A DNA stretch of 64,000 bases from positions 124,001 to 188,000 of the forward strand of contig NZ_CP016477.1 of the NCBI RefSeq assembly GCF_001693275.1, written 5' to 3'. Position numbers and translations under genes: made by a program. The stretch is from Picosynechococcus sp. PCC 7117. Its GTDB lineage: Bacteria; Cyanobacteriota; Cyanobacteriia; Cyanobacteriales; MRBY01. This document shows, one piece after another, positions 13,331-48,596 of the stretch. Numbering within the stretch: the stretch's first letter is position 1; each line of letters starts with the position of its first letter. The notes beneath the pieces are model-generated. The model saw only the letters and a list, made by a program, of their open reading frames with translations. It did not search any database and was not told the DNA's origin.

Positions 13331-13717
13331 TTAGGTGATTTGGGAAAGATTGTCTTCCCAATTTTCCCCATCAAAAAATATAATCTCAAAGACATCTAAT
13401 AGATTTTCATCTAAACAGCGCAGATTCACATCGATACTATCGGGATGGGAGCGGGGTAGATAAAAAGAATGGACGCCACAACGCCGACAAAAAAGGTGGG
13501 TTGCTTGGTGGGTATTAAACTGGTAGGCCGTTAGCAGATCTTGTCCTTGGAGTAAATGGAAATCTGCCTGGGGGACAATGATATGGAGAAATCCTTTTTT
13601 ACGACAAATAGAACAGTTACAGTCAAGGGCTTGAAAGTTTCTCAAGGCGACTTGGAAGCGAACACCACCACAATGACAGCCACCACCATAACGTTTCGGT
13701 GTAGAAAAATTAGACAT
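13331..13717 (-). CDS. GFA family protein (Mss4-like, zinc-binding)
   Basis: 128-aa protein of the glutathione-dependent formaldehyde-activating (GFA)/CENP-V family. Zinc ligands are visible in CHCGGVRF, CNCSICRKKG and LFCRRCGVHSF. The family includes S-(hydroxymethyl)glutathione synthase-like proteins, but most members have unknown substrates. ATG at 13717 is chosen because the longer open frame would overlap the preceding Rrf2 gene. Only 10 bp separate the two, so they are almost certainly co-transcribed and the regulator may control this gene. Confidence 0.85.
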   Translation of the reverse strand: MSNFSTPKRYGGGCHCGGVRFQVALRNFQALDCNCSICRKKGFLHIIVPQADFHLLQGQDLLTAYQFNTHQATHLFCRRCGVHSFYLPRSHPDSIDVNLRCLDENLLDVFEIIFFDGENWEDNLSQIT

Positions 13718-13727
13718 TGTAAAAACT

Positions 13728-14171
13728 TCAAATAACAAAACTTGTGGCTTCTCCCTGGGCTGCTTTCCAACTGCGGGCGTCGTAATACAAATCAGCAAGG
13801 GTAATGTTATAAAGGGCTTCTTGGAGTTTTTGGTGGAGCCGCTGCCAGAGACTAAAGGTAACCCAATCTTCGGCTTGGTCGGGGTGGGGTTCATGGTGGG
13901 GGAGCGGTTCAATGGTTTCACCGATGGCCTGGAGAATTTGACCTAGGGAAATATCTTCGGGTTTCGATAGTAATTGATATCCCCCTTGGGCACCACGGAC
14001 TGAACGAAGAATTCCGGCTCGACGCATCTCAATCAACAGCTTCTCAAGGTATGGGGCAGGGAGGTTTTGGCGTTTGGCGATCGCCTTTACGGAGGTGGGG
14101 CCATAACCGGGTTGCAAACTAATATCGAGTAAAGCTTTAACACTGTAATGACCTCTGGTGGTTAGCTTCAT
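13728..14171 (-). CDS. Rrf2 family transcriptional regulator lacking cysteines
   Basis: 147-aa winged-helix regulator starting MKLTTRGHYSVKALLDI, with the Rrf2 block PTSVKAIAKRQNLPAPYLEKLL, then LRSVRGAQGGYQLL and the dimerisation helix ISLGQILQAIGE. IscR-, NsrR- and RsrR-type members bind an Fe-S cluster. Here the region after the wing (EPLPHHEPHPDQAED) has His and acidic residues but the whole protein contains no Cys, so cluster ligation would have to be non-canonical or absent. First gene of a pair with the GFA protein; divergent from cyAbrB. Confidence 0.9.
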   Translation of the reverse strand: MKLTTRGHYSVKALLDISLQPGYGPTSVKAIAKRQNLPAPYLEKLLIEMRRAGILRSVRGAQGGYQLLSKPEDISLGQILQAIGETIEPLPHHEPHPDQAEDWVTFSLWQRLHQKLQEALYNITLADLYYDARSWKAAQGEATSFVI

Positions 14172-32223: not shown

Positions 32224-33912
<1,689 letters not shown>

Positions 33913-33951
33913 TTTTTCCTGAACCCTTTTAAAAATTCAATATCTGCATTG

Positions 33952-33976
33952 GGCACCCTCCGGGGTGCTTTTTTTG
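33952..33976 (+). terminator. terminator of groEL2
   Basis: GCACCC and GGGTGC arms (33953-33958, 33963-33968) with a tight loop, followed by a run of seven T. Confidence 0.88.
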
Positions 33977-34003
33977 TTTTCTGGGCGAAAATCTTGGGTT
34001 AAG

Positions 34004-37000
34004 TTAGCCCGTCGGGGACTGTTCTTGTAACCAGTGATTGAGGGTTTCCCGAAGGGTTTGGGGATTGAGGGGTTTACTGAGGTAGTCGTTCATGCCTGCT
34101 GCCAAATACTGCTCTTGGTTGGCTTCTCCTAGGGTGGTGGTGAGCGCAATGATCGGTATCTGCCGGTGGCGATCGCCGCCACCCCGGCGAATATGTTGGC
34201 TCGTTTGAAAGCCATTCATCTTGGGCATGAGGCAATCCATCAAAATTAAACGATAGGGCTGATTTTCAGGGGTTGCTTGGAGCATTTGTAGGGCTTCTGT
34301 GCCCCCTGGGGCGACATCGACGGAAAAACCAAACTGTTGGCAGAGGCCCCGAATAATAATTTGATTGACGGGGTTATCTTCCACGAGGAGGAGGCGGGCC
34401 GAGATTTTTTGGCCCTGTTTGCTTGCGCTAGGTTGGGAGCCAGAATCTGGGGGTCGAGCGTTTGGCTGGGCGAAATTTTCACAGAAACGCCGACAGGCCT
34501 GCCACAGGGGACGGGATAAAATCGGCTTGACGAGGTGGTGGGTTGCCGTGAGTTGGGGGAAGCTTTGGGGATCGGTGGGGCTGTAGGGAAACGTAGTGAG
34601 CAGCAGTAACTGGCAGGTTTTTTGGGGGTAAAGCTGTTGAAGATTTTGGGCGAGGGTCAGGGCATCGATCTCCCTCAGGGAATGATCCAAGATCAGGAGG
34701 GGCGTTTCGGTGGTGGGGGGCTGGGTTTGCCAAAGGGCGATCGCCTCTTGGCCATTGGCTGCGGCTTGGACAGTGGCGCCCCAGGCTTGGAGCTCATCGC
34801 GCAAAATTTCCCGTTGGGTTTGTTGCTCTTCGACGATGAGGATCTCTAATCCCTGCAAGCTATCGGCGGTCATCCGCGACAGTTGAGATCGCCCCGCCCC
34901 ATACCCTAGGGTAAAGGTAAAACAGCTCCCCTCCCCTGGGGTACTAACCACTTCAATGGTGCCCCCCATCACTTGACAAAGACGCTGGGTAATCGCCAAA
35001 CCGAGACCCGTGCCACCATAACGCCGGGTGGTTCCTGCTTCTAACTGGGTAAAAGGCTCGAAAAGATCGTTCAATTTCTCAGCGGCGATGCCAATGCCAG
35101 TATCCGTCACTGAGCAGGTAAAATCGAGGCGATCGCCAACCCGCTCCGTTTGACAGCGAATCATCACCTCCCCTTGGTTGGTAAATTTAATGGCATTGCT
35201 TACCAGATTCGTCAGGATTTGTCGTAAACGCCCAGGATCTCCTTGGATAGAACCGTGCCGCAAACCCCGTAAATCAAAAATGAGATTGAGACCTTTCTCC
35301 TGGGCCGCAAACGCCATCAACTTGGCAAAATTTTCAAAAAATTGATGGAGATCAAAATCCACCGTTTCTAGTTGCAGCTTACCGGCTTCCATCTTCGAGA
35401 AGTCCAAAATATCGTTCAGCAAGATCAGTAAAGATTCAGCGCTAGAAAGGGCGATGCGGGCGTGTTCTTGCTGTTCTGTGGTGAGCTCTTCGCTATAGAG
35501 CAGTAAATTGAGCATTCCGATAATGCCATTCATGGGCGTCCGAATTTCGTGGCTCATGGTGGCTAAAAACATACTTTTGGCATGGGCGGCCGCTTCTGCT
35601 GCTTCTTTGGCATCAATCAACGCCTGCTCCGCCTGTTTGCGATCGCCAATGTCACTATGGGTACCAATAATCCGCAGAGGTTCTCCCGACGGTGTCCATT
35701 CGATCACCTTGCCCCGGTCTAAAATCCACTTGTAGGAACCATCTTTGCACCGCACCCGATGTTCACTGCGATAGGTTTCTGTCTGGCCATCAAGGTGAGC
35801 CTGGATGGCTTGATAAGTCATTGCCAAATCATCTGGGTGGACACGACTTTCCCATTCCATCAGGGTGTCACCAATTTCTGCCTCGCCGTAGCCCAACATC
35901 GCTTTCCACTGCCGCGAAAAAAAGACATGATTTGTTTGGGCATTCCAATCCCAGACCCCATCCCCAGAACCCTCTAGGGCAAATTGCCAACGGAGTTCAC
36001 TTTCCCGGAGAGCCTGTTCTGCCAAGACCCGCTCCGTAATATCGAGGGCAGTCCCAAAAAAACGGATGGTTTTGCCAGAGGCATCTTTTTGACTACTCCC
36101 CCTCGCCTCATGGTAGAAAATTTGGCCATTGGTCAGTTGGGCACGGTATTGCACCATATAGCTTTCGCCCGTGCGCATCGCTGTTTCAACGCAGTGTTTG
36201 AGGCGTTCTTGGTCATCGGGGTGAATTAAAGCCCAGTGTTCATCGTAGGTGGGCGGCCCCTGGGCCATATTTAAGCCAAACATTCGCAACAGTTCCGGCG
36301 ACCAGGAGAGATGACCAGTGGCTAGATCGACTTCCCAGCTACCGATATGGGCGAGGCGTTGGGCTTCCTGGAGGGAGGCTTCACTGTGTTTGAGGCGTTC
36401 TTCAAAGCGTTTGTAGGGGGTCAAATCAATGTGGGAACCAATGATACGCAGCGGCTGACCTTGTGCATCCCATTCGATGACCTTACCAGAACAAAGCACC
36501 CAGACAGTGGAGCCATCTCGGTGACGATAACGGACTTCGTTGCAGAAGGGAATTTCGCCGTGGCTAGCAATGTGCTGTTGCAGGTTGTGGTTAACTTTCT
36601 GGAGATCTTCGGGAAAAATCAGTTTTTGCCAGGATTCTGGGCGGTTAGGCAGTTCGTGATCTGCATAGCCAAACATCCGCTTAAAACTGGGGCTGAGATA
36701 CTCGATATTGTTAATACAATCCCAGTCCCAATAGCCAGCAAAGGCATTTTCAAGAATTTCTTCAAAAAATTTCAGTTCATGGTGACTGTATTCCGGTGCT
36801 GCGGCTGGTTCTGGGTCGAGGTGTTGGCGTAATTCGGCGAGGCGATCGCCAGGCAAGATTCCCACTGGTCTCCCTTGCTCATCCACAAGGGTTAGCCAAG
36901 CAAGCTGCTGCTCGGCGAAGTATTGACATAATGATTCAATTTGGTCGAGGGCGGCCACGGGATAGGTCGGGGCGGGCCGTTGCATAATCTCTGCGGCGGT

Positions 37001-37231
37001 TGCCGTTTGGAGATTTTCCCCCTGGGCGATCGCCCGTAAAATATCCCCAGGAGAAACGGTGCCAAGGAGCTGTTCGTTAGCCATAACCAGCACGCCAACA
37101 AGTTGAGGATCGGCACAAAGGCGATCGCTCAATGCGATGAGAGATAGATTAGGCGAAACAATAACCGGTTGATGCAGCAAACTGGCGATCATTTCGGGCA
37201 CTGGAAACCGTGATGGAAGTGCTGTTGACAT
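34004..37231 (-). CDS. hybrid sensor histidine kinase with CBS, PAS/PAC and two receiver domains
   Basis: About 1075 aa. Order: two CBS motifs ([20 protein letters not shown] to AELRQH), three PAS/PAC units ([45 protein letters not shown]), HisKA with the phospho-acceptor in [18 protein letters not shown], HATPase_c ([24 protein letters not shown]), then receiver 1 (ILIVEEQQ, Asp in LLILDHS, Lys in HLVKPI) and receiver 2 ([11 protein letters not shown], Asp in [13 protein letters not shown], Lys in YLSKPL). No transmembrane helix is seen, so it is a cytoplasmic sensor; PAS domains may bind cofactors and CBS may sense adenylates. No output gene is adjacent. ATG at 37231 is preferred to a TTG at 37291. 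Confidence 0.93.
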
Positions 37232-37576
37232 GGCACATAGGCTGAAAGAAAGTCGCGGCAGGAAGTGCAACAACCAACTTTTATGTATCAATTCCTTGGG
37301 AGATAACTCTTATCTTATCAAGCGATGTTTCCTGTTGTTTGATTTATGAAGGGAAAAGCAATATTTTTTTCGTTTAAATTAAAACGATCACTTCATGATG
37401 TAAAAACAACGCCTCTAAACTCTCTAGTAATTGACAGTAAATCTCAATTCAATTTCAGTCTAAAAATGTCAACCAGTAGATCCAGATAACATTAAATTGC
37501 TATGAAATTTTTCCATCTTGAAATGCATTAATTATTTTTTGAATTTCAGTTAGATTATCAGTGCTGAGATTGCGGA

Positions 37577-38977
37577 CTATTGAACAATCAGATAACCGTC
37601 ACGATACCAAGTTTCAAGCTGTGCGAGGGAAATGCCGCTGGCGATCGCCTCTTTTTGGGTAAACCCTTCAGGATATTCACTGAGCAAAGTTTGCAGTGCG
37701 GGAATGGTTTGGTGTTTGGCGAGAAAATCATGGTAAATGCCCCCTTCCCAGAGGTAACACCACGATGGCAAACGGTAGCAGGTCTTTTCAGTGATTGGGG
37801 GATAGCGATAGGCGAGGGGTTCACGACATTGCGCGTTTAAAATCGCTTGGGCATAGCCTTCTAATTGACCTTGCACACCGTAGTTTTCATGGAGATAGGC
37901 AAGGGTTTCGGGGGAAGTTTTGCGTTTTTCTATAATAATTTGCGCGGCGATCGCCGCCGCTGTTTTCGCGTCCCCAAAATGAACTTTGTCAATTAAATAA
38001 TCAGGCAACAATTCCCGATGGGTCGAGACACGGGACACAATCGCTGGGGTTCCACAACCTAAAGATTCATAGGGGGAATTACCAAAGGATTCAACAAAAT
38101 TACCCAAGCCCAAGGTGACAGCACCCAAACTGTAATATTGCGGCATTAACGACTGGGGAATCCATTCATGAAAAATGAAATTTTGCGTTAAATTGCGGGT
38201 TTTAATTTCCGTTTCCATCTCCCGATAAAAGGCTGCCACTTCCGGCGAAATGCCCACCTCTAACCAGCGGGGAACCAACACTTTTAAATTTTTAATGCCG
38301 TATTTGTGGACGAGTAAATCCGCGACGCCGATCGTTTGAGGTAAACCCTTCGTGGGTTCAGGGCGGTGGGGATGAATCACAATCGCATCTTTTACCGGGT
38401 CAACAGGCACAATCGCCAAAATTTCTTGCGGTGGAGTCGGTTTAAAAATATCCCAATCAATGCCCGTTGAAACGACTAATAGCCGCTCATTTAATTCCGG
38501 CAAAAATCGTCCCATCGTCTCCGCATAAAAACGCCGCGAATATTCCGACACCGCAATCAGGCGATCGCCCTGAAATAAAAATCCCCCAAGGATCGTTTCC
38601 GGATAGACGTTATCCCGCAGTGCCACCACCGTCGGAATGTGCTGGTAAGCATAGGGAAAGAGAAATTCCCCGTCGTGCATATAAAAGCGATCTGCGCCGT
38701 CGAGGTGGGCAGCCACATCCTGCATCATGTTTGCAATATCGTAGGCGGGGATGGCGTAGGGCTGTGGAAAGGGTTGATGGAACCGCAAAATCGGTTTAAC
38801 CAACACATTGTCATGCCAGCGAAATTCAACGCAACTATCGGCGCAACGGGTCGAGAGAATCACCACCTCATGCCCCATTTCCCCCAGATACACCGAGATA
38901 TTTTTAATCTGTTTCGGTGCGCCCCCGGTCACATGGTCACGGAACAGGGGATTAATCGAGAACATGACAATTTTCAT
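37577..38977 (-). CDS. glycosyltransferase, GT4-like
   Basis: 466 aa with a GT-B fold. The N-terminal Rossmann part (MKIVMFSINPLFRDHVTGGAPKQI, HEVVILSTRC) binds the acceptor. The C-terminal donor site contains VIHPHRPEPTKGLPQTIGVA and GNFVESFGNSPYESLGCGTPAIVS, with the EX7E-type acidic pair (E-S-F-G-N-S-P-Y-E) of retaining GT4 enzymes. It ends with a ~70-residue extension (SEYPEGFTQKEAIASGISLAQLE) that looks like a small helix-turn-helix-type domain. Sugar donor and acceptor unknown; no polysaccharide cluster is adjacent. ATG at 38977 is chosen over a TTG three codons upstream. Confidence 0.82.
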   Translation of the reverse strand: MKIVMFSINPLFRDHVTGGAPKQIKNISVYLGEMGHEVVILSTRCADSCVEFRWHDNVLVKPILRFHQPFPQPYAIPAYDIANMMQDVAAHLDGADRFYMHDGEFLFPYAYQHIPTVVALRDNVYPETILGGFLFQGDRLIAVSEYSRRFYAETMGRFLPELNERLLVVSTGIDWDIFKPTPPQEILAIVPVDPVKDAIVIHPHRPEPTKGLPQTIGVADLLVHKYGIKNLKVLVPRWLEVGISPEVAAFYREMETEIKTRNLTQNFIFHEWIPQSLMPQYYSLGAVTLGLGNFVESFGNSPYESLGCGTPAIVSRVSTHRELLPDYLIDKVHFGDAKTAAAIAAQIIIEKRKTSPETLAYLHENYGVQGQLEGYAQAILNAQCREPLAYRYPPITEKTCYRLPSWCYLWEGGIYHDFLAKHQTIPALQTLLSEYPEGFTQKEAIASGISLAQLETWYRDGYLIVQ

Positions 38978-39211
38978 CGGCGGCAAAGGGCAATAAACAG
39001 CAAAAAAACATTACCTATTCAACGGGAACCAGGTGAAGTTTAGTTTAAGGTTTCACTAGGAAATAGCTTCACTGCATTACTGAGCTCTGTATCTTGATCC
39101 TCACGTGACCTAGAAGATACAAGCCCATGCTAAGTAAATCCGTTTGATGCCGATTTAGCAGCGTTAAAATTATCTAAGGTATGCTCGTTCTCCAATTGGA
39201 AGATCATCGCT

Positions 39212-40471
39212 TTACGGAACCTTATGTACGGAAAACTCGAACCAGTCACGGCTGCCAAGTACCACAGATATATTTCGTGCTGCTGCTATGTAGTAAAGAT
39301 CTCCATCAATGACTTGTAGGCTACAGCCGAATCGACAACTTGGTCGCATTAAAAAAGATTCAAATTGGGTTCGTCCTAGATTTATGCCTGCTCTCGCATC
39401 CCTCGGAAAAACATCTGAAGCTCTAAAATCAAAGATGTCCACTTCCACAATTTCAGGGCGTTGATAAGTGCTTCTACTAATTACGCCTGGTCGGCCTCGC
39501 GAATCCCTATCTCTGTTTCTCGGATCGCTTGTAGTGACAGTGTCAGTTACCAGGCGGACGGTCGGGACACTTCTAACGTCACTATCTAAAAGAATTTCAT
39601 GCAGAACAATATGATCGATTTCTCCTTGGTTAAACATACTCGCTAAAACCAATCGATCAGTTTGCTGGATCAGGCTCATACCAGACGACGATGACCAAAC
39701 ATTATCAAAAGTCTTAATTAGTCGCCATTTACAACCTGGTTGATCTAAATCATCGCACTTTACCGATTTGAAAGACCGTGGCACCCATGGATCAAGATTC
39801 TCTTGACCAGGAGATGAATATATTTCACGCTCAGCGCGGTAAATTTCCAATTGCGAGGGCGCATATTCAGCGACATCTGACCGAACGAGAAAAATACCAT
39901 GATCACCAAACTCCGTAATTCCTACCGAATTAGTTTTCTTTTCGATGCGGAGATCTGGTAATTCTTTTAATTGATTATTGGCTAAATTGTATACGCGAAT
40001 ATTGCCTATTCCTCTTTTATCGTCGTTATCTGTAGCAACGATATAATTCCCATGGGCTTGCAAAATACTGGGGTGGTAATAATCAAAAATACATTCGGTC
40101 TTCCAGGTAAGATTTTTGGCATCCATGCCTTCCGACCAGGGCGTCGAATAGGAGATTGTGCCGCAGGTTTGACTATTTTCACCTCTATTCTCTAGTGAAT
40201 GGCTGATCACAATCCGGCGATCGCCGGTCATAGTGATGCCTTGAACATGATCACTCCATCCTCGCTGATCGTTAAACCGGTCGTAAAAGCCCTGAATTTC
40301 CGTAGTATAAGTTGTAGAACGATCTGACCACCTCCTATTAGGGCCTGAATTCGACAAGAGGTCGAGCACACTTCTGTTAAGGGTTGAGTCCTCAGCATGT
40401 GCTACACTCTGCAGAAATGTTCCGAAAACAATGATTTGACAAGCAAACAATAGCAACTTCAGGGTGCGCAC
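39212..40471 (-). CDS. predicted secreted protein of unknown function
   Basis: 419 aa; no family recognised. The N-terminus MRTLKLLLFACQIIVFGTFLQSVAHA is a clear Sec signal peptide with a likely cut after AHA. The mature part is hydrophilic and beta-rich with repeated strand-turn patterns (RRIVISHSLENRG, NYIVATDNDD, RLVLASMFNQG, LQVIDGDLYYIAAARN), compatible with a beta-propeller or adhesin-like fold. Several cysteines (TCGTIS, TECIFD, KCDDLDQPGCKW, PSCRFGCS) could form disulfides in the periplasm. GTG start at 40471 after GAGAAA; an in-frame stop lies just upstream. Codon use looks less adapted than in neighbours and only one HIP1 site lies inside. Confidence 0.72.
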   Translation of the reverse strand: MRTLKLLLFACQIIVFGTFLQSVAHAEDSTLNRSVLDLLSNSGPNRRWSDRSTTYTTEIQGFYDRFNDQRGWSDHVQGITMTGDRRIVISHSLENRGENSQTCGTISYSTPWSEGMDAKNLTWKTECIFDYYHPSILQAHGNYIVATDNDDKRGIGNIRVYNLANNQLKELPDLRIEKKTNSVGITEFGDHGIFLVRSDVAEYAPSQLEIYRAEREIYSSPGQENLDPWVPRSFKSVKCDDLDQPGCKWRLIKTFDNVWSSSSGMSLIQQTDRLVLASMFNQGEIDHIVLHEILLDSDVRSVPTVRLVTDTVTTSDPRNRDRDSRGRPGVISRSTYQRPEIVEVDIFDFRASDVFPRDARAGINLGRTQFESFLMRPSCRFGCSLQVIDGDLYYIAAARNISVVLGSRDWFEFSVHKVP

Positions 40472-40606
40472 TTTCTCGACCTAATTATGTTCTTTTATCA
40501 TGTTATCTGTGATTTTAGAGCGGGTTATAAGGGTTTATAAAAAGAGACAAGGAAAAAGGAAAGTATTGCCTGTTATTGAGTAGATCTTGGTTTATGCCAA
40601 GAATTA

Positions 40607-42481
40607 TTAAATATCATCAATCCGTAAGCGTCCATCCCGAACAACCCCGCCCGCTTTTGTCACGCCGCCATAGGTTTTAATGTGGGTGATCAAAGCTTCC
40701 CGCAGCAGCAATTCCGTATCTTTGCTGGGCAAGACATCAAGATTAAACAGGGCAATATCCAGATGCTTTTGGGTAAATTTAGCTTCCCAGTGGCAGGCAG
40801 GTTGCCGGATAAAACTATGGGTCACAAAGGTAAAAGTATGCGCCAGTTGATCTTTTAACGGTGTACCCCGCACCAAAATATCCGTTGCCTGGGCCGCGAC
40901 GCGATTTTCACCAAGCTGAATTTTGTAGCGAATTTGCCCGCTAAATTGCACAAAACCCCGTTCTAGGTGGGCTTCACCGTAGCGATTTGCCCGCCGTGCA
41001 TTGTCCTGCAACAGATCCCAAAGTTGTGCCCCTGTGATTTGAAACAAACGCAACGTATCGGCGTGGGGCATCACCGCAAACCAATCGCCATAGACCAACG
41101 TCGCTGGGGGTAAACCTGCGCACAACACCGCCGCATCGGTCAGGGCAAAATCTACTTCGTAACCGTTTTTTTGTGCCTGTGCCACCATGCCCGCTGTGAT
41201 GAAATTGGCAAAGGCGGATTCATGGCTGGCAAAATCATTTAAAACGACATCGGTTTCTAAATCGGGATGATCAGCGACCATGCCCAAGGGGTGATTCAGT
41301 TTTTGGTGTAGGGAGGTAATGATCGGGGCAATCTGGGTTTGCTCAAAGGTTCGCTCGACGGGCAGATCGGCAGTCACAGACAGTTTGGCATTGGTCACGG
41401 TGGCGGGCTGCTGCTCATCTCTCAGGGTAATGGTCACTTCCCCTAAAAACCGCCCTAAAGTTCCCGCCTGCACAATAGGAATACCGTTGACGATGTTTTC
41501 TTGATTCAGACAGGTTTCATTCAAAATGTGGTGGGTGTGTCCGCCGATAATCAAATCCACTGCGCCAGAGGGTAAATGTTCCGCCAGTTGGCGATCGCCG
41601 TAACCCTCTACCGTGGCACTGGTCGAATGGAGGTCATAGCCCAAATGACTGAGGATAATCAGCACGTGGCAATAGGGACGCAACACAGGTAAAAGATTTT
41701 TGACAACTTGCACCGGATCGACAAAGGTTAAATGACGCGCATCGGAACCCTTCATTTGCGCCGAGGTGGTTAAGCCGATAATGCCGACTCGTACCCCCTT
41801 CACATCCAGTAATGCCGCCGGATAAATGACCTTTTTTAGCTGGGCTGGCGGTAACAGATTCGCCGACAACACCGGAAAATCCCCCGACCGTTGAATCATT
41901 TTGACGAGGGCATGGGTGCCTAAATCGAGATCGTGATTCCCCAAAGCGGCGGCATCGACCCCCAAGGTTTGATACAGATCGTAGGCATGGTTGCATTCAG
42001 AAACCAGCGCATCAAAGGGGGTTCCCACCATGTCATCCCCCGCTGAAAGGAGCAACACCCCAGCTTGGGGATTGTTGGCATACTTGCGTTGTTGTTGGTG
42101 GTAACGGGAGACAAGCCGCGAAAAAACAGGGATATTTCCCTCTGGGGCAAGGTGACTGATGCGTCCATGCAGGTCATTAAAATGCAAAATTTTTAACCGA
42201 AAGGGGGTCACAATCGGCAGGTCAGCGGCGCGGGGGATTTGGTAGCGACTGGAAATATTGGGATCAACGTCAATCGCGGTAATGGGCTGGGTAGCATCAC
42301 CAATAAACAAAAACCGCGATCGCCCCTGATTTTTCGCCAGATAGGGAGCGGCGACCAAACGTAGCGGATTGGGGATAAACGCAGATTCTGATCGGGCAGA
42401 AGGCTTTGGGACTGGAAGATTTGGCTGGCTGTTCACAGGACTTCCCAAAAGGATGACGGCACAGGGAGAGGCGATCGCCAC
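40607..42481 (-). CDS. 5'-nucleotidase/bifunctional metallophosphatase, probably periplasmic
   Basis: 624 aa. N-terminal calcineurin-like phosphoesterase with dimetal ligands: LKILHFNDLHGR (Asp, His), LLSAGDDM, ALGNHDLDLG (Asn-His), LIILSHLG and LIIGGHTHH. The C-terminal UshA-like domain (5_nucleotid_C) contains NFITAGMVAQA and FVTHSFI and carries the nucleotide pocket. It would hydrolyse nucleotides or other phosphate esters outside the cytoplasm. The first possible start is GTG at 42481; the following hydrophobic run AIASPCAVILLG looks like a signal peptide core but lacks a basic n-region, and an in-frame stop lies close upstream, so the true start is uncertain. Confidence 0.87.
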   Translation of the reverse strand: MAIASPCAVILLGSPVNSQPNLPVPKPSARSESAFIPNPLRLVAAPYLAKNQGRSRFLFIGDATQPITAIDVDPNISSRYQIPRAADLPIVTPFRLKILHFNDLHGRISHLAPEGNIPVFSRLVSRYHQQQRKYANNPQAGVLLLSAGDDMVGTPFDALVSECNHAYDLYQTLGVDAAALGNHDLDLGTHALVKMIQRSGDFPVLSANLLPPAQLKKVIYPAALLDVKGVRVGIIGLTTSAQMKGSDARHLTFVDPVQVVKNLLPVLRPYCHVLIILSHLGYDLHSTSATVEGYGDRQLAEHLPSGAVDLIIGGHTHHILNETCLNQENIVNGIPIVQAGTLGRFLGEVTITLRDEQQPATVTNAKLSVTADLPVERTFEQTQIAPIITSLHQKLNHPLGMVADHPDLETDVVLNDFASHESAFANFITAGMVAQAQKNGYEVDFALTDAAVLCAGLPPATLVYGDWFAVMPHADTLRLFQITGAQLWDLLQDNARRANRYGEAHLERGFVQFSGQIRYKIQLGENRVAAQATDILVRGTPLKDQLAHTFTFVTHSFIRQPACHWEAKFTQKHLDIALFNLDVLPSKDTELLLREALITHIKTYGGVTKAGGVVRDGRLRIDDI

Positions 42482-42579
42482 AATGACGAAATGCAGTTTC
42501 TAGGGGAAGCGTGGCACAGTTGTTTAATCGGCGCGTTAAGGTTCCGTTAGTGGGTTGTAAAGTTCTGCCAAAGTGACCG

Positions 42580-42607
42580 AAAAAAAAGACATGGCCGCAA
42601 CCATGTC
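42580..42607 (-). terminator. terminator of the channel-like gene
   Basis: Minus strand: GACATGG-TTGCGG-CCATGTC followed by a run of T (complement of 42580-42587). Lies 27 bp after the stop. Confidence 0.88.
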
Positions 42608-42633
42608 CAGATTAATTACGTTTTTAAGGGCAT

Positions 42634-44253
42634 TTAGTCATTTTTCATCGAATCAAGCCAATGTCTGACCTGTTCTGCGGCGATATCTTTACCACCCAGA
42701 CCAAAGGCAATGGCGATCGCCACAGCAATCCCACCGACCAGCAGTCCAAAGGCCAAATTCACGATATTTGTGGCAATGCCCATTTGTTCCAGCGCCATCG
42801 CGCCCACGAGGACGAGAATGATAATCCGCGCCGCTTGACCGAGGATCTTCGACTGCCTAGAGCCAGAGGCAGCCAGGGCTTTGTAGGAAATGTTGGAGAA
42901 ATACAAACCCAACGCAAAGATCAAAAGGGCGACTAACACCTGTCCGGCGATCGCCAAAATGACCCCCACAACGCTGGTGAGAGCTTCAATTTGCAGCACA
43001 TCAACGGCAGTCAGCGCCGCCACCAACATAATGACCACCAGGGAAATCGTCCCCATCACCTGGGAAGGGGTTTTACCCGGTTTCGCGGTTTCGCCCTCGC
43101 CTTCCCTCGGAGCAGCACTAACCATCCCGTCTAGGCCGAGCCAAGTTAAGACATTATCAAAGCCAAAACCCGTCAGCACATTGCTCACAAACTCAGACAC
43201 ATATTCACCCACCACATAGGCAAAGGTGAGAATAATCGCAGCGGCGAGAAGCTTGGGCAAGAGCATTAACACTTGATCCAACATGGCGATCGCCGGGAGC
43301 GAAATCGCCTCAATCTGGGCCACCTCTAGGGCAGAAATCGCCACAGGGATCAAGATCAAAATATAAGCAATGGTACCGAGCACCCAAGACAAAGACTGTC
43401 GCCCAGCACTACTAGACAGACCAAATTTTTCACCAATTTGATCTACGCCCGTTGCCTTCAGGAGGTTGGTCACCAAACGGCGCACCACCTGGGCAATGAA
43501 CCAACCCACAACCCCAATCAGGGCCGCCGCAAAGAGATCCGGCAGGATTAGCAATACTTCATCCACGACATCCCGTAGGGGCGCGAGGGTATTTTCTAAG
43601 CCCAGGGTTTCGAGGATCGGCGTAAGGAAAAAGAAGAAAATAAACCAATACAGCGCATTGCCGATGGTTTCACTGATATTCGTGGTCTGGGATTGCGGTG
43701 CCGTTTCTGCTTCTGTCGCCTCGGTCTCAGCGTCGGTGTCCGCCGGATTAAGGCGCTCATCTAGGCGAAAGGTATTTAGGCCTTTGACCACAATTAATTT
43801 GGCAATGGTGGCCACCAACCAAGCAACCCCTAACCACAAACCCGCCGCAAACAGTTGGGGCAAGAAGTTTGTGACTTGACTAAGCAGTTCATTCAGTGGT
43901 GTGTAAACCCCGTCAAGCTGGAGGGTTTCTAAAACAGCCACCACCGTAAAGAGAATGACGAACCAGTAGACGATATTCGCCGCCCAAATTTCAATGGGCA
44001 GATCACTTTTGCCGTCGTGACCGGTGATCCAAGCGGCAATTTTATTATCGACATCGGTTTTATTCAGCAACCCTTTAACGATGGCTTTCACCACTAGGGC
44101 AACGATCCAACCGATGATTAAGATGGCGATCGCCTTAATGATATTGGCGACATCTTCCCCGACGAGGGTTTGTAGAGACTCCGGTAATTGGAGTGCTAAA
44201 ACAGCATAGGGGTCACCCACAGGAGGCCCCAAGGTATTGATTAAAGGTGACAT
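42634..44253 (-). CDS. multi-helix membrane protein with mechanosensitive-channel-type TM-helix repeats
   Basis: 539 aa built from about five repeats of two helices: VANIIKAIAILIIGWIVALVVKAIV, LPQLFAAGLWLGVAWLVATIAKLIVV, LPDLFAAALIGVVGWFIAQVVRRLV, LPKLLAAAIILTFAYVVGEYV and VLVALLIFALGLYFSNISY. Each repeat has the pattern LP-hydrophobic-G-W-A, as in the conserved TM_helix domain of small mechanosensitive channel/CmpX-like proteins. The segments between repeats start with DRL/DQI/DKV-type motifs. The typical MscS beta domain is not visible, so a stress-related membrane role rather than a proven channel is inferred. ATG at 44253. Confidence 0.82.
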   Translation of the reverse strand: MSPLINTLGPPVGDPYAVLALQLPESLQTLVGEDVANIIKAIAILIIGWIVALVVKAIVKGLLNKTDVDNKIAAWITGHDGKSDLPIEIWAANIVYWFVILFTVVAVLETLQLDGVYTPLNELLSQVTNFLPQLFAAGLWLGVAWLVATIAKLIVVKGLNTFRLDERLNPADTDAETEATEAETAPQSQTTNISETIGNALYWFIFFFFLTPILETLGLENTLAPLRDVVDEVLLILPDLFAAALIGVVGWFIAQVVRRLVTNLLKATGVDQIGEKFGLSSSAGRQSLSWVLGTIAYILILIPVAISALEVAQIEAISLPAIAMLDQVLMLLPKLLAAAIILTFAYVVGEYVSEFVSNVLTGFGFDNVLTWLGLDGMVSAAPREGEGETAKPGKTPSQVMGTISLVVIMLVAALTAVDVLQIEALTSVVGVILAIAGQVLVALLIFALGLYFSNISYKALAASGSRQSKILGQAARIIILVLVGAMALEQMGIATNIVNLAFGLLVGGIAVAIAIAFGLGGKDIAAEQVRHWLDSMKND

Positions 44254-44444
44254 TGTTTCAGAATTAAAATTAAATAACTACATCGCTAATCACGGCCATA
44301 ATGGGCGTTTTTGCGCTAATTTACGGCAAGACGTTGCCTCTTCCACCCTACAAAGATCCTCCGGATTTTTCACCCGCAAAAAGGATAAATTCGCTATATT
44401 TTTTTTCATAACTTTGGGAAAATCCACCTTTAGATAGAATTTTG

Positions 44445-44888
44445 ATGGAAATTTTTGAGCAATCAATTCAAGTGCGGGCCAGTGCCACCTGTGTTGAGCA
44501 GTGTTTTACGGATCTAGAAACCATGCACCGCTGGTTAAATCCCCTGCTGCGGTGTGAACCCCTCGGCGATCGCTGGAGCACAGCCCTCGAAAGTCAAAGT
44601 CGCTTTTGGTTAAAAATTCCCTTGGTTAACCTGGTGTTGAATAATCGCGTTGTGGAACGGGAACCGGGGTTAATTGTCTGGCAATTCACGGGCTTTTTCC
44701 GGGGGCGAGACCGTTGGGAATGTATCCCCAATGCCACAGGAACCCAGTTGGTAAACCGCTTTCAGTTTGAAATTCCCAATCCTTTGGTGCGTTGGGGCTT
44801 TAAAACCTTTGCCGCCCGCTGGACAAAGAAAGATATGCAGGCCCAACTGCGACGGATCAAGGCGATCGCCGAAGCCACCCAACCGTGA
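44445..44888 (+). CDS. SRPBCC family protein
   Basis: 147-aa START/Bet v1-like (helix-grip) protein: MEIFEQSIQVRASATCVEQCFTDLETMHRWLNPLLRC, then RVVEREPGLIVWQFTGFFRGRDRWECIPNATGTQLVNRFQF, and a C-terminal long helix (KKDMQAQLRRIKAIAEA). Such proteins bind lipids or other hydrophobic ligands in a central cavity; ligand unknown. ATG at 44445. First of several small co-directional genes. Confidence 0.8.
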   Translation: MEIFEQSIQVRASATCVEQCFTDLETMHRWLNPLLRCEPLGDRWSTALESQSRFWLKIPLVNLVLNNRVVEREPGLIVWQFTGFFRGRDRWECIPNATGTQLVNRFQFEIPNPLVRWGFKTFAARWTKKDMQAQLRRIKAIAEATQP

Positions 44889-44939
44889 CCCCCCAAACCG
44901 TTTAAGATAAATAACAGGAAAAATAACCCGTAAACCTGC

Positions 44940-45212
44940 ATGTATAGTCTGGATTTGACCCTCAAATATAGCCCGATCCCCGTTTCTGTCCAACGCAAAG
45001 AAGCTGATGCGGCCCAAGCACTCTATCAATCTGTCCTTGAGGCGATGAAAGGCGACTACGCCACCCTCCTCGAACTCACCTGCGAAAAGGATGAGGATAA
45101 AAAAATCGCCCTCCTCAGTGATCAAATTAGTGCCGTTGTCCTCAACAAGAAAAGTGGTGCAGCCGCTGGCGGACGGGTACCAGGCTTTTTTGCGACCCAA
45201 GCGGCAGAATAA
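44940..45212 (+). CDS. small conserved protein of unknown function
   Basis: 90 aa, hydrophilic. The first half is helical (SVQRKEADAAQALYQSVLEAM) and the second half holds DKKIALLSDQISAVVLNKK and a Gly/Ala-rich tail. No family recognised; it looks like a small cyanobacteria-specific protein. Lies 51 bp after the SRPBCC gene on the same strand. Confidence 0.6.
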   Translation: MYSLDLTLKYSPIPVSVQRKEADAAQALYQSVLEAMKGDYATLLELTCEKDEDKKIALLSDQISAVVLNKKSGAAAGGRVPGFFATQAAE

Positions 45213-45316
45213 CAAAGGTCTCTGGCCTCAACCCACGGGGGGCGATCGCTGCCCTCTTTTTTGTTACGTTTACTGTGTCGTTGTGATTATGGCCCCCAGT
45301 GACCACTCCCAAAGCC

Positions 45317-45985
45317 ATGTCTAGTTCTGCCATTGCCGTCGAAAACCTAAATTTCAGTTGGCAACCGGACAAAAAAATCCTCAGTCACTGCAATCTAGCC
45401 GTCCCCCAGGGAGAATTTTGGATGCTCTTGGGCACCAATGGCAGTGGCAAATCGACTCTGTTACGGATTCTGGCGGGACTCCTAACGGCCGATTCGGGTA
45501 CCGTTGAATTGATCCAACCCGTCGGCTTTGTCTTTCAAAACCCAGATCACCAGTTGGTCATGCCTACCGTGGGCGCAGATGTCGCCTTTGGCCTGGTTTC
45601 TGAACGCTTACCAACCCCCACCATCCAACAGCGGGTGGCCGAGGCCTTGGGAGCAGTGGGTTTAGGTAATTTGGCCCGTCGGCCGATCTATGCCCTCAGT
45701 GGTGGCCAAAAACAACGGGTCGCCATTGCCGGGGCGATCGCCAGACATTGTGAAGTGCTGCTCCTCGATGAACCCACGGCCCTCTTGGATGGTGATACCC
45801 AACTCGATCTCGTCAAACAAGTGCAACATTTAGTTAAAAGTCGGGGGATGACGGCCCTCTGGGTGACCCATCGCCTCGATGAATTAGACTTTTGTGATGG
45901 GGCCTTCCTCTTGGAAAATGGCCGAGTCGTTGACCAAGGCGATCCCCAAACCCTCAAACATCGTTTACAAACCACCACCGTCTAG
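45317..45985 (+). CDS. energy-coupling factor-type ABC transporter ATP-binding protein
   Basis: 222-aa ATPase of the CbiO/EcfA type. Walker A GTNGSGKST, the Q-loop QNPDHQLVMPTVGADVAFGL (the PDHQ pattern is characteristic of ECF ATPases), signature ALSGGQKQRVAIAGAIA, Walker B EVLLLDEPTALLD and switch His in VTHRLDE. It would power vitamin or metal uptake with an EcfT and S component, or act with a plastid-type partner as in plant ABCI11-like proteins. No membrane partner is adjacent. ATG at 45317 preferred; a GTG lies six codons upstream. Followed after 6 bp by dut. Confidence 0.87.
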   Translation: MSSSAIAVENLNFSWQPDKKILSHCNLAVPQGEFWMLLGTNGSGKSTLLRILAGLLTADSGTVELIQPVGFVFQNPDHQLVMPTVGADVAFGLVSERLPTPTIQQRVAEALGAVGLGNLARRPIYALSGGQKQRVAIAGAIARHCEVLLLDEPTALLDGDTQLDLVKQVQHLVKSRGMTALWVTHRLDELDFCDGAFLLENGRVVDQGDPQTLKHRLQTTTV

Positions 45986-45991
45986 CTTTCT

Positions 45992-46420
45992 ATGCACCTC
46001 CGCCTCCTCAAGCTCCACCCCAACGCCATTATTCCTAAATATCAACACGATGGGGATTCTGGTGTTGACCTCCATGCCATTGAACCCGTGGCGATCGCCC
46101 CCCACAAAACAGCCTTGATTAAAACGGGCCTCGCGGCGGAAATTCCCATTGGCACCGAACTTCAAATTCGCCCCCGCAGCGGTTTGGCCCTCAAACAAAG
46201 TGTCACCGTTCTCAACAGTCCTGGCACCATCGACGCCAACTATCGCGGTGAAATCGGCGTGATCTTAATCAACCATAGCGATACAGTCTTTGAGGTCAAA
46301 GCCGGGATGCGCATTGCCCAAATGGTGATGGTTCCCGTGATGCATTTAGATATTACGGTGGTTGACAAAGTCAGCGACACAAGCCGAGGTACGGGCGGGT
46401 TCGGCTCTACGGGCACTTAA
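45992..46420 (+). CDS. dut: deoxyuridine 5'-triphosphate nucleotidohydrolase
   Basis: 142-aa trimeric dUTPase that converts dUTP to dUMP and limits uracil in DNA. All five motifs are visible: HDGDSGVDLHA (1), RPRSGLAL (2), GTIDANYRGEIGVIL (3), RIAQMVMVP (4) and SRGTGGFGSTG (5). Nearly fused to the ECF-type ATPase gene upstream (6-bp gap), probably an operon. Confidence 0.97.
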   Translation: MHLRLLKLHPNAIIPKYQHDGDSGVDLHAIEPVAIAPHKTALIKTGLAAEIPIGTELQIRPRSGLALKQSVTVLNSPGTIDANYRGEIGVILINHSDTVFEVKAGMRIAQMVMVPVMHLDITVVDKVSDTSRGTGGFGSTGT

Positions 46421-47513: not shown

Positions 47514-48596
47514 TTAACCGTTGATTGCAGGTGCTTGCAGAGCCACAGGTGCTTGCTCGCCAGCTGCTAAGTCTAAGGGGAAGTTGTGAGCGTTACGCTC
47601 GTGCATTACTTCAAAACCGAGGTTCGCACGGTTCAGAATGTCCGCCCAGGTGTTGATTACACGACCTTGAGAGTCAAGGATGGACTGGTTGAAGTTGAAA
47701 CCGTTCAGGTTGAATGCCATGGTAGATACACCAAGAGCAGTGAACCAGATACCGACTACAGGCCATGCACCCAAGAAGAAGTGCAAGGAACGGCTGTTGT
47801 TGAAAGATGCATATTGGAAGATCAAACGACCGAAGTAGCCGTGGGCTGCAACGATGTTGTAAGTTTCTTCCTCTTGACCGAACTTGTAACCGTAGTTCTG
47901 AGATTCGGTTTCAGTGGTCTCACGTACCAAAGAAGAGGTTACGAGAGAACCGTGCATTGCGGAGAACAAAGAACCACCAAATACACCAGCCACACCAAGC
48001 ATGTGGAAGGGGTGCATCAGGATGTTGTGCTCTGCCTGGAATACGATCATGAAGTTGAACGTACCAGAAATACCCAAAGGCATACCATCAGAGAAGGAAC
48101 CTTGACCGATGGGGTAGATGAGGAATACTGCAGTTGCTGCTGCTACGGGAGCAGAGAACGCAACACAGATCCAGGGACGCATACCAAGGCGGTAAGAAAG
48201 TTCCCACTCACGACCCATGTAGCAGAAAACACCAATGAGGAAGTGGAAAATTACCAACTGGTAAGGGCCACCGTTGTACAACCACTCATCTAGAGAAGCA
48301 GCTTCCCAGATGGGGTAGAAGTGGAGACCAATTGCGTTAGAAGAAGGTACAACTGCGCCAGAGACGATGTTGTTACCGTAGAGAAGAGAACCTGCGACGG
48401 GCTCACGGATACCGTCGATGTCAACGGGAGGAGCTGCGATGAACGCAATGATGAAGCAGGTAGTAGCAGTGAGAAGGGTAGGAATCATCAGGACGCCGAA
48501 CCAACCGACATAGATGCGGTTCTCGGTGCTGGTGATCCACTGACAGAACTTCTCCCACAAGGAAGCGCTTCCGCGCTGTTGTAGTATAGTAGTCAT
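47514..48596 (-). CDS. psbA: photosystem II D1 protein
   Basis: 360-aa PSII reaction-centre protein with five membrane helices. Mn-cluster and cofactor ligands are all present: Tyr161, Asp170, Glu189, His190, His198, His215, His272, His332, Glu333, His337, Asp342 and the mature C-terminus Ala344, plus a 16-residue CtpA-cleaved extension. Ser264 is present. Residue 130 is Glu, the form linked to high-light D1 in other cyanobacteria. Gly80, Phe158 and Thr286 are canonical, so this is not the low-oxygen D1' variant. Preceded by a promoter and a 5'-leader hairpin; followed by a terminator. Confidence 0.99.

Follow-up and report, generated by a model that had tools for sequence, protein, structure and literature searches.

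Lineage-specific (ORFan) secreted proteins of cyanobacterial accessory genomes belong to no recognised family, carry a signal peptide, are encoded with atypical codons and turn up in some strains only, at one site of the chromosome. Proteins exported by the Sec pathway are recognised by an N-terminal signal that combines n-, h- and c-regions and a cleavage site of the AXA type. The gene found at 39212..40471 on the minus strand of the window (the whole stretch of 64,000 nucleotides of Picosynechococcus sp. PCC 7117 DNA that was analysed) was compared with these ORFans, and no tested feature sets it apart from them. It is fairly well supported that the gene, in the following referred to as the orphan, is of this ordinary kind, i.e. 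an apparently secreted, constrained and codon-atypical ORFan exchanged among Picosynechococcus lineages. Among the paper titles listed by searches on the subject none was about this protein.

The orphan is an intact open reading frame of 419 codons plus stop, starting with GTG in the genome of the window (G000) and with ATG in the copy carried by a second genome (G002). The latter corresponds to Picosynechococcus sp. PCC 7003, as one of its plasmid contigs is 100% identical to NZ_CP016475 throughout the 8 kb compared. A 4,675-base contig of G000 aligns with NC_010476 of Picosynechococcus sp. PCC 7002 (91.5% identity, 81% coverage), in keeping with a host of this genus. Read by eye, the N-terminus runs from RTLK through LLLFACQIIVFGTFLQS to VAHA followed by ED, which has the tripartite layout of a Sec signal peptide; this comprises residues 1-26 (40394..40471, minus strand) with a putative signal peptidase I site between AHA and ED. 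The AlphaFold2 (AF2) model places a helix at residues 2-24, and this block (pLDDT 81-82) is the sole confident part of the model. The signal peptide claimed in the initial annotation is thereby borne out as Sec-type, and the product is apparently exported by this pathway; the description as secreted holds fairly well, as judged from the sequence. The mature chain from residue 27 has a computed mass of 44.8 kDa and a pI of 5.5. The several cysteines noted earlier were counted as seven; six belong to the mature chain (residues 103, 127, 239, 247, 379 and 383), and all are conserved in the G002 copy, which is 94% identical. A pairwise estimate between the two copies gave dS 0.129, dN 0.028 and dN/dS 0.215, and the existence of a second carrier together with this ratio speak for a real, apparently constrained gene.

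Searches of Pfam, NCBIfam and PHROGs gave no match to the orphan up to E 5, nor did PADLOC up to E 1, and the G002 copy was likewise without a Pfam match. The best match among PDB sequences is a leucine-rich repeat (LRR)-like stretch at residues ~152-184 (E 0.0054 with the single protein, 0.0021 with a two-row profile), where no stretch passes on its own. Residues 152-183 resemble a single LRR unit of the designed LRR proteins 4pq8 and 4r5d (E 0.0021). In contrast to these proteins, which represent a class recognised by several tandem units, the orphan has one unit only and no above-chance repeat. An identity as an LRR protein was consequently rejected, and the match was treated as chance because no repeat follows. 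The initial statement that no known family is recognisable thus stands fairly well, with one weak LRR-like stretch as the only qualification.

The carriers were always the same two genomes, G000 (counted as a carrier in every set) and G002. In the overlapping genome sets examined, the orphan was present in 2/6 genomes of the genus, 2/60 relatives and 2/386 genomes of the phylum, as well as in 2/388 genomes of each of the order and class sets. The order set additionally gave 14 weak rows in 14 genomes (E 0.008-0.1), 4/14 of which cross stops, and the class set, searched with a profile that included typed rows, gave eight weak rows in six genomes (E 0.01-0.09), 6/8 of which cross stops; both groups were taken as chance on the basis of score and length. 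No copy was found in plasmids or viral contigs. A phage origin was rejected, as only 12 phage records were retrieved, at E 8-9 and in tail-fibre-type genes or an unnamed gene, with nothing significant among them. Six exact 8-residue peptides from the orphan, scanned against genome contigs of bacteria and archaea, yielded 31 stretches, none of which was confirmed; such a scan detects close relatives only, so that distant relatives outside the cyanobacteria may exist. On these sequence comparisons the orphan appears to be without relatives found outside its genus, and its occurrence within the genus is patchy rather than uniform.

The base composition of the orphan was evaluated against the 45 open reading frames of the window that were picked mechanically (at least 450 bases, little overlap), a few of which may not be genes. 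Its GC content of 0.437 is the second lowest of the 45, its GC3 of 0.381 is the lowest (z -3.4), and its CAI-like index of 0.589 is the second lowest, after that of a Photo_RC protein (47514-48596). The less adapted codon use relative to its neighbours, proposed in the initial annotation, is accordingly confirmed. The companion argument from HIP1 fared less well: a single HIP1 octamer does lie in the gene (40217..40224), among 123 in the whole window, yet this represents no significant depletion against the 2.42 sites expected (P=0.30). Indeed, 25% of all 1260-base windows carry one site or none, and 9/44 of the other open reading frames show a lower HIP1 density. Depletion of HIP1 as a sign of arrival was therefore rejected.

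The synonymous divergence (dS) between G000 and G002 has a window median of 0.38, based on those 44 of the 45 open reading frames (orphan included) for which the alignment with G002 spans 150 codons or more, so that the dS of the orphan is about threefold below the median; the values for its flanking genes are 0.50 and 0.65. Only the frame at 44670-45215 is lower (0.06), and those slightly above are the Photo_RC protein (0.14) and a GFA-family protein at 13331-13921 (0.15). Codon adaptation is an unlikely cause of the low value, because the codons of the orphan are poorly adapted. Its leader (40472..40530, minus strand) differs at a single position in the alignment of G000 and G002, with much higher divergence further upstream, where the four bins between 40500 and 40899 hold 16-31 differences per 100 bases. 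The bins of the orphan itself hold 0-10, except for 15 at 39500-39599. The glycosyltransferase gene on the other side is approached without a sharp edge, at 4-15 differences per 100 bases in the bins 38600-39199. Hence the copies of the orphan and its leader separated later than those of the adjoining nucleotidase gene, as expected from transfer or recombination, which suggests a recent exchange between strains. In combination, patchy presence, atypical codons and low dS support recent acquisition or exchange. The earlier proposal of a relatively recent arrival is on this basis fairly well sustained (2/6 genus genomes, dS 0.13 versus 0.38), while HIP1 lends it nothing.

The changed codons between the two copies comprise 31 silent and 26 non-silent ones. 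Three neighbouring genes have dN/dS ratios of 0.048-0.135, i.e. below that of the orphan, and residues 281-315 contain nine changed versus three silent codons, so the constraint is apparently uneven along the protein. Two other frames deserve mention. The frame at 44670-45215 (minus strand) lacks a Pfam match and has dN 0.077, with dN/dS above 1 against G002; it may be no gene at all, with conserved DNA underneath. The GFA-family frame at 13331-13921 (minus strand) has a GC content of 0.445 and no match in the G001 stretches compared, and is a second candidate for recent exchange.

The flanking genes are those described in the initial annotation. On one side lies a group 1/4 glycosyltransferase (PF00534/PF13439; 37577..38986, minus strand), identified by Pfam and NCBIfam, whose open reading frame starts with TTG, although an ATG at 38977 is the likelier start. 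On the other lies an UshA-like 5'-nucleotidase (PF00149/PF02872; 40607..42481, minus strand), identified in the same manner and present in 5/6 genus genomes at E 1e-50. The glycosyltransferase is narrowly spread, with matches in 4/40 relatives at E 1e-30, one of which, 34% identical, adjoins the same nucleotidase. Alignment of G000, G002 and the non-carrier G001 delimits an island without counterpart in G001, with approximate boundaries at 39059..40606. In G001 the nucleotidase reads almost directly into the glycosyltransferase leader, and the matches to both end 104 bases apart. The island DNA (39040-40620) had no match at E 0.01 in G001, G003, G004 or G005, i.e. in 4/6 genus genomes, and the one match elsewhere in its own genome (32 bases, 88%, E 0.0025) was taken as chance. 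A tRNA-linked island was rejected, there being no tRNA in 33000-46000, and so were the terminal repeats of a mobile element, as one direct repeat of 14 bases and four inverted pairs (14-21 bases) were seen, none at both island ends. No Rfam element reached the gathering score in 38900-40700, no terminator was found (1.7 expected in shuffles), and the orphan leader contains two promoter-like matches against a shuffle mean of 4.0.

The non-carrier allele is a reason for considering that the orphan might be an old gene of the genus which several lineages have lost. The ancestor of G000, G001 and G002 would then have had the gene, G001 would have deleted it together with the nucleotidase stop, and later recombination would have homogenised the copies of G000 and G002. 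The nucleotidases of G000, G002, G004 and G005 share the C-terminus RLxIxD, extended by I in G000 and G002, before the stop codon. That of G001 (3' end, L014) is missing this C-terminus and its stop; the frame continues across the junction and terminates in the glycosyltransferase leader, a picture closer to the scar of a deletion than to a cleanly empty site. G001 may accordingly represent a deletion allele, which counts against a simple insertion. Against widespread loss, G005 has the nucleotidase and, 220 bases on, the 34% identical glycosyltransferase, with no orphan in the genome; G003 and G004 are also devoid of it, and the atypical codons favour arrival from outside. Loss from an old gene is tenable on this evidence, albeit at somewhat less than an even chance.

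Beta-propellers consist of four-stranded blades repeated round an axis, and a sequence repeat between blades is common but not obligatory. Single-sequence AF2 runs on the whole orphan and on residues 71-419 both gave a pLDDT of 37, and both models show weak strands, several of them in groups of four. The beta-rich character assigned initially agrees with these strands, at that low confidence only. The repeated strand-turn pattern was not upheld: the best self-alignment score of 42 lies below the shuffle mean of 50.4 and was reached by 50/60 shuffles, and in a gapless repeat test 0/20 settings of width and copy number stood out, the best being reached by 11/100 shuffles. Both tests consequently place any repeat between blades at chance level. 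With the model of residues 71-419, Foldseek gave 464 matches at a cut-off of E 10; the best had E 3.1e-3, and 0/464 reached E 1e-3. Among the 50 of these matches listed, most are beta-propeller proteins by name, with TM scores of 0.11-0.19 to the model; the search tool itself warns that a low-confidence input, here of pLDDT 37, makes such matches meaningless. Pfam and NCBIfam gave no propeller family for the orphan, and the sole recognised propeller match among PDB sequences was one ERCC-8 line at E 0.68. That the orphan is a beta-propeller-like binding protein is a guess, at which these matches hint at most.

A more specific version of this idea is that the orphan is a diverged member of a secreted propeller family that bears HxQG and HPGGIQ motifs and is related to Pfam DUF6454 (PF20055). 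Residues 74-211 (DHVQGI...HPSILQ..G...RVYNL...VGIT) can be fitted to this pattern, and the N-terminal half has an HxQG and HPxxxQ..G spacing that may resemble that of DUF6454. A consensus typed for the family does match DUF6454 (E 4e-5), but it was typed after the orphan had been read, and the likeness is therefore circular. The orphan itself lies below the gathering cut-off of DUF6454, with no match at E 5; the G002 copy had no Pfam match and the orphan's own genome contained none to DUF6454 at E 1. No real member of the family was recognised among the matches examined; the typed consensus also gave 24 weak matches in 20/291 genomes (E 0.0015 or more). One degenerate peptide derived from the typed alignment gave eight stretches in bacterial and archaeal contigs, none confirmed, and the single match of a typed DNA pattern (L037) was judged chance from the translations. 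A literature search for DUF6454 returned no paper. Membership in such a family is in our judgement unlikely.

The surroundings of the gene had also led to the suggestion of a phosphate-related role. The binding site of SphR is given in PMC1906773 as CTTAACCT in tandem with 3-base linkers. A single site in the window has three mismatches or fewer to this double repeat, namely CTTAAACT-aaa-CTTCACCT at 39031..39049 (minus strand). It lies close to the island but not within it, in the leader of the glycosyltransferase, 44 bases above the start of that open reading frame. As at least one such match occurs in 34/100 whole-window shuffles, its existence alone is unremarkable; what is remarkable is its position and conservation. 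The corresponding place in G001 reads CTTAAACT-ggg-CTTCACCT, with both 8-base units identical and a different spacer (10/200 shuffles of the 8-kb stretch contain a match), and the stretches of G004 and G005 contain no such site. In the orphan leader the best site for tandem Pho boxes has 12/16 or 16/24 letters, equalled by 29-33% of 149-base windows, and the nucleotidase leader has no Pho box above that chance level on its strand. Since the Pho-box-like site faces the glycosyltransferase and the orphan leader is without an above-chance site, the glycosyltransferase is a candidate for the Pho regulon and the orphan, as far as its leader tells, is none, barring read-through from another promoter. 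The proposed phosphate role thereby retains only the indirect argument of a Pho-box-like site 3' of the orphan. That orphan, nucleotidase and glycosyltransferase, which share one strand, would form a phosphate-limitation module, e.g. one that binds organic phosphate or displays it on the cell surface, is suggested by the location of the orphan between an UshA-like enzyme and a gene with a conserved Pho-box-like site, yet is quite improbable given the chance-level leaders of the orphan and nucleotidase and the retention of both neighbours without the orphan in G001.

The reading we prefer is that the gene is functional, belongs to the accessory genome of some Picosynechococcus strains, was acquired or exchanged, and has as its Sec-exported product a propeller-like binder in the envelope; taken as a whole this reading is tentative, and some part of it is likelier than not to need revision. 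The protein would be exported and cleaved after AHA, and its mature form of ~45 kDa would reside in the periplasm or on the cell surface. Purifying selection, as well as acquisition or exchange by recombination after the carrier lineages split, is what we infer from a gene that is intact in two genomes, codon-atypical and patchy, in which silent changes outnumber amino-acid changes per site, and which is far less diverged between the carriers than most genes nearby. With less support, the mature part would be mainly beta and propeller-like, with three disulfides paired by nearness (Cys 103-127, 239-247 and 379-383). Such a domain could bind an envelope ligand, perhaps a glycan or a partner protein, and so provide a strain-variable surface trait, the ligand being pure conjecture. 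A binding rather than an enzymatic role was preferred solely for want of a match to any enzyme family, and two copies of 94% identity are too few for conservation arguments on function. The propeller fold and the binding role are guesses, and more apt to prove wrong than right. It is very improbable that the orphan is the founder of a secreted family of distinct fold that moves among Picosynechococcus strains and adds surface binding to a phosphate-limitation locus.

Overall, the initial observation is partly confirmed, namely for the open reading frame, signal peptide, cysteines, lack of a family match, neighbours and codons and not for HIP1 depletion and the repeat pattern, and its interpretation is partly supported. 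The Pho-box-like site in the glycosyltransferase leader constitutes a separate, testable lead on a phosphate-dependent change of the envelope. For Picosynechococcus, a genus in laboratory use, the locus provides a documented strain-variable secreted ORFan, for which two carriers and a non-carrier allele make loss versus gain testable.
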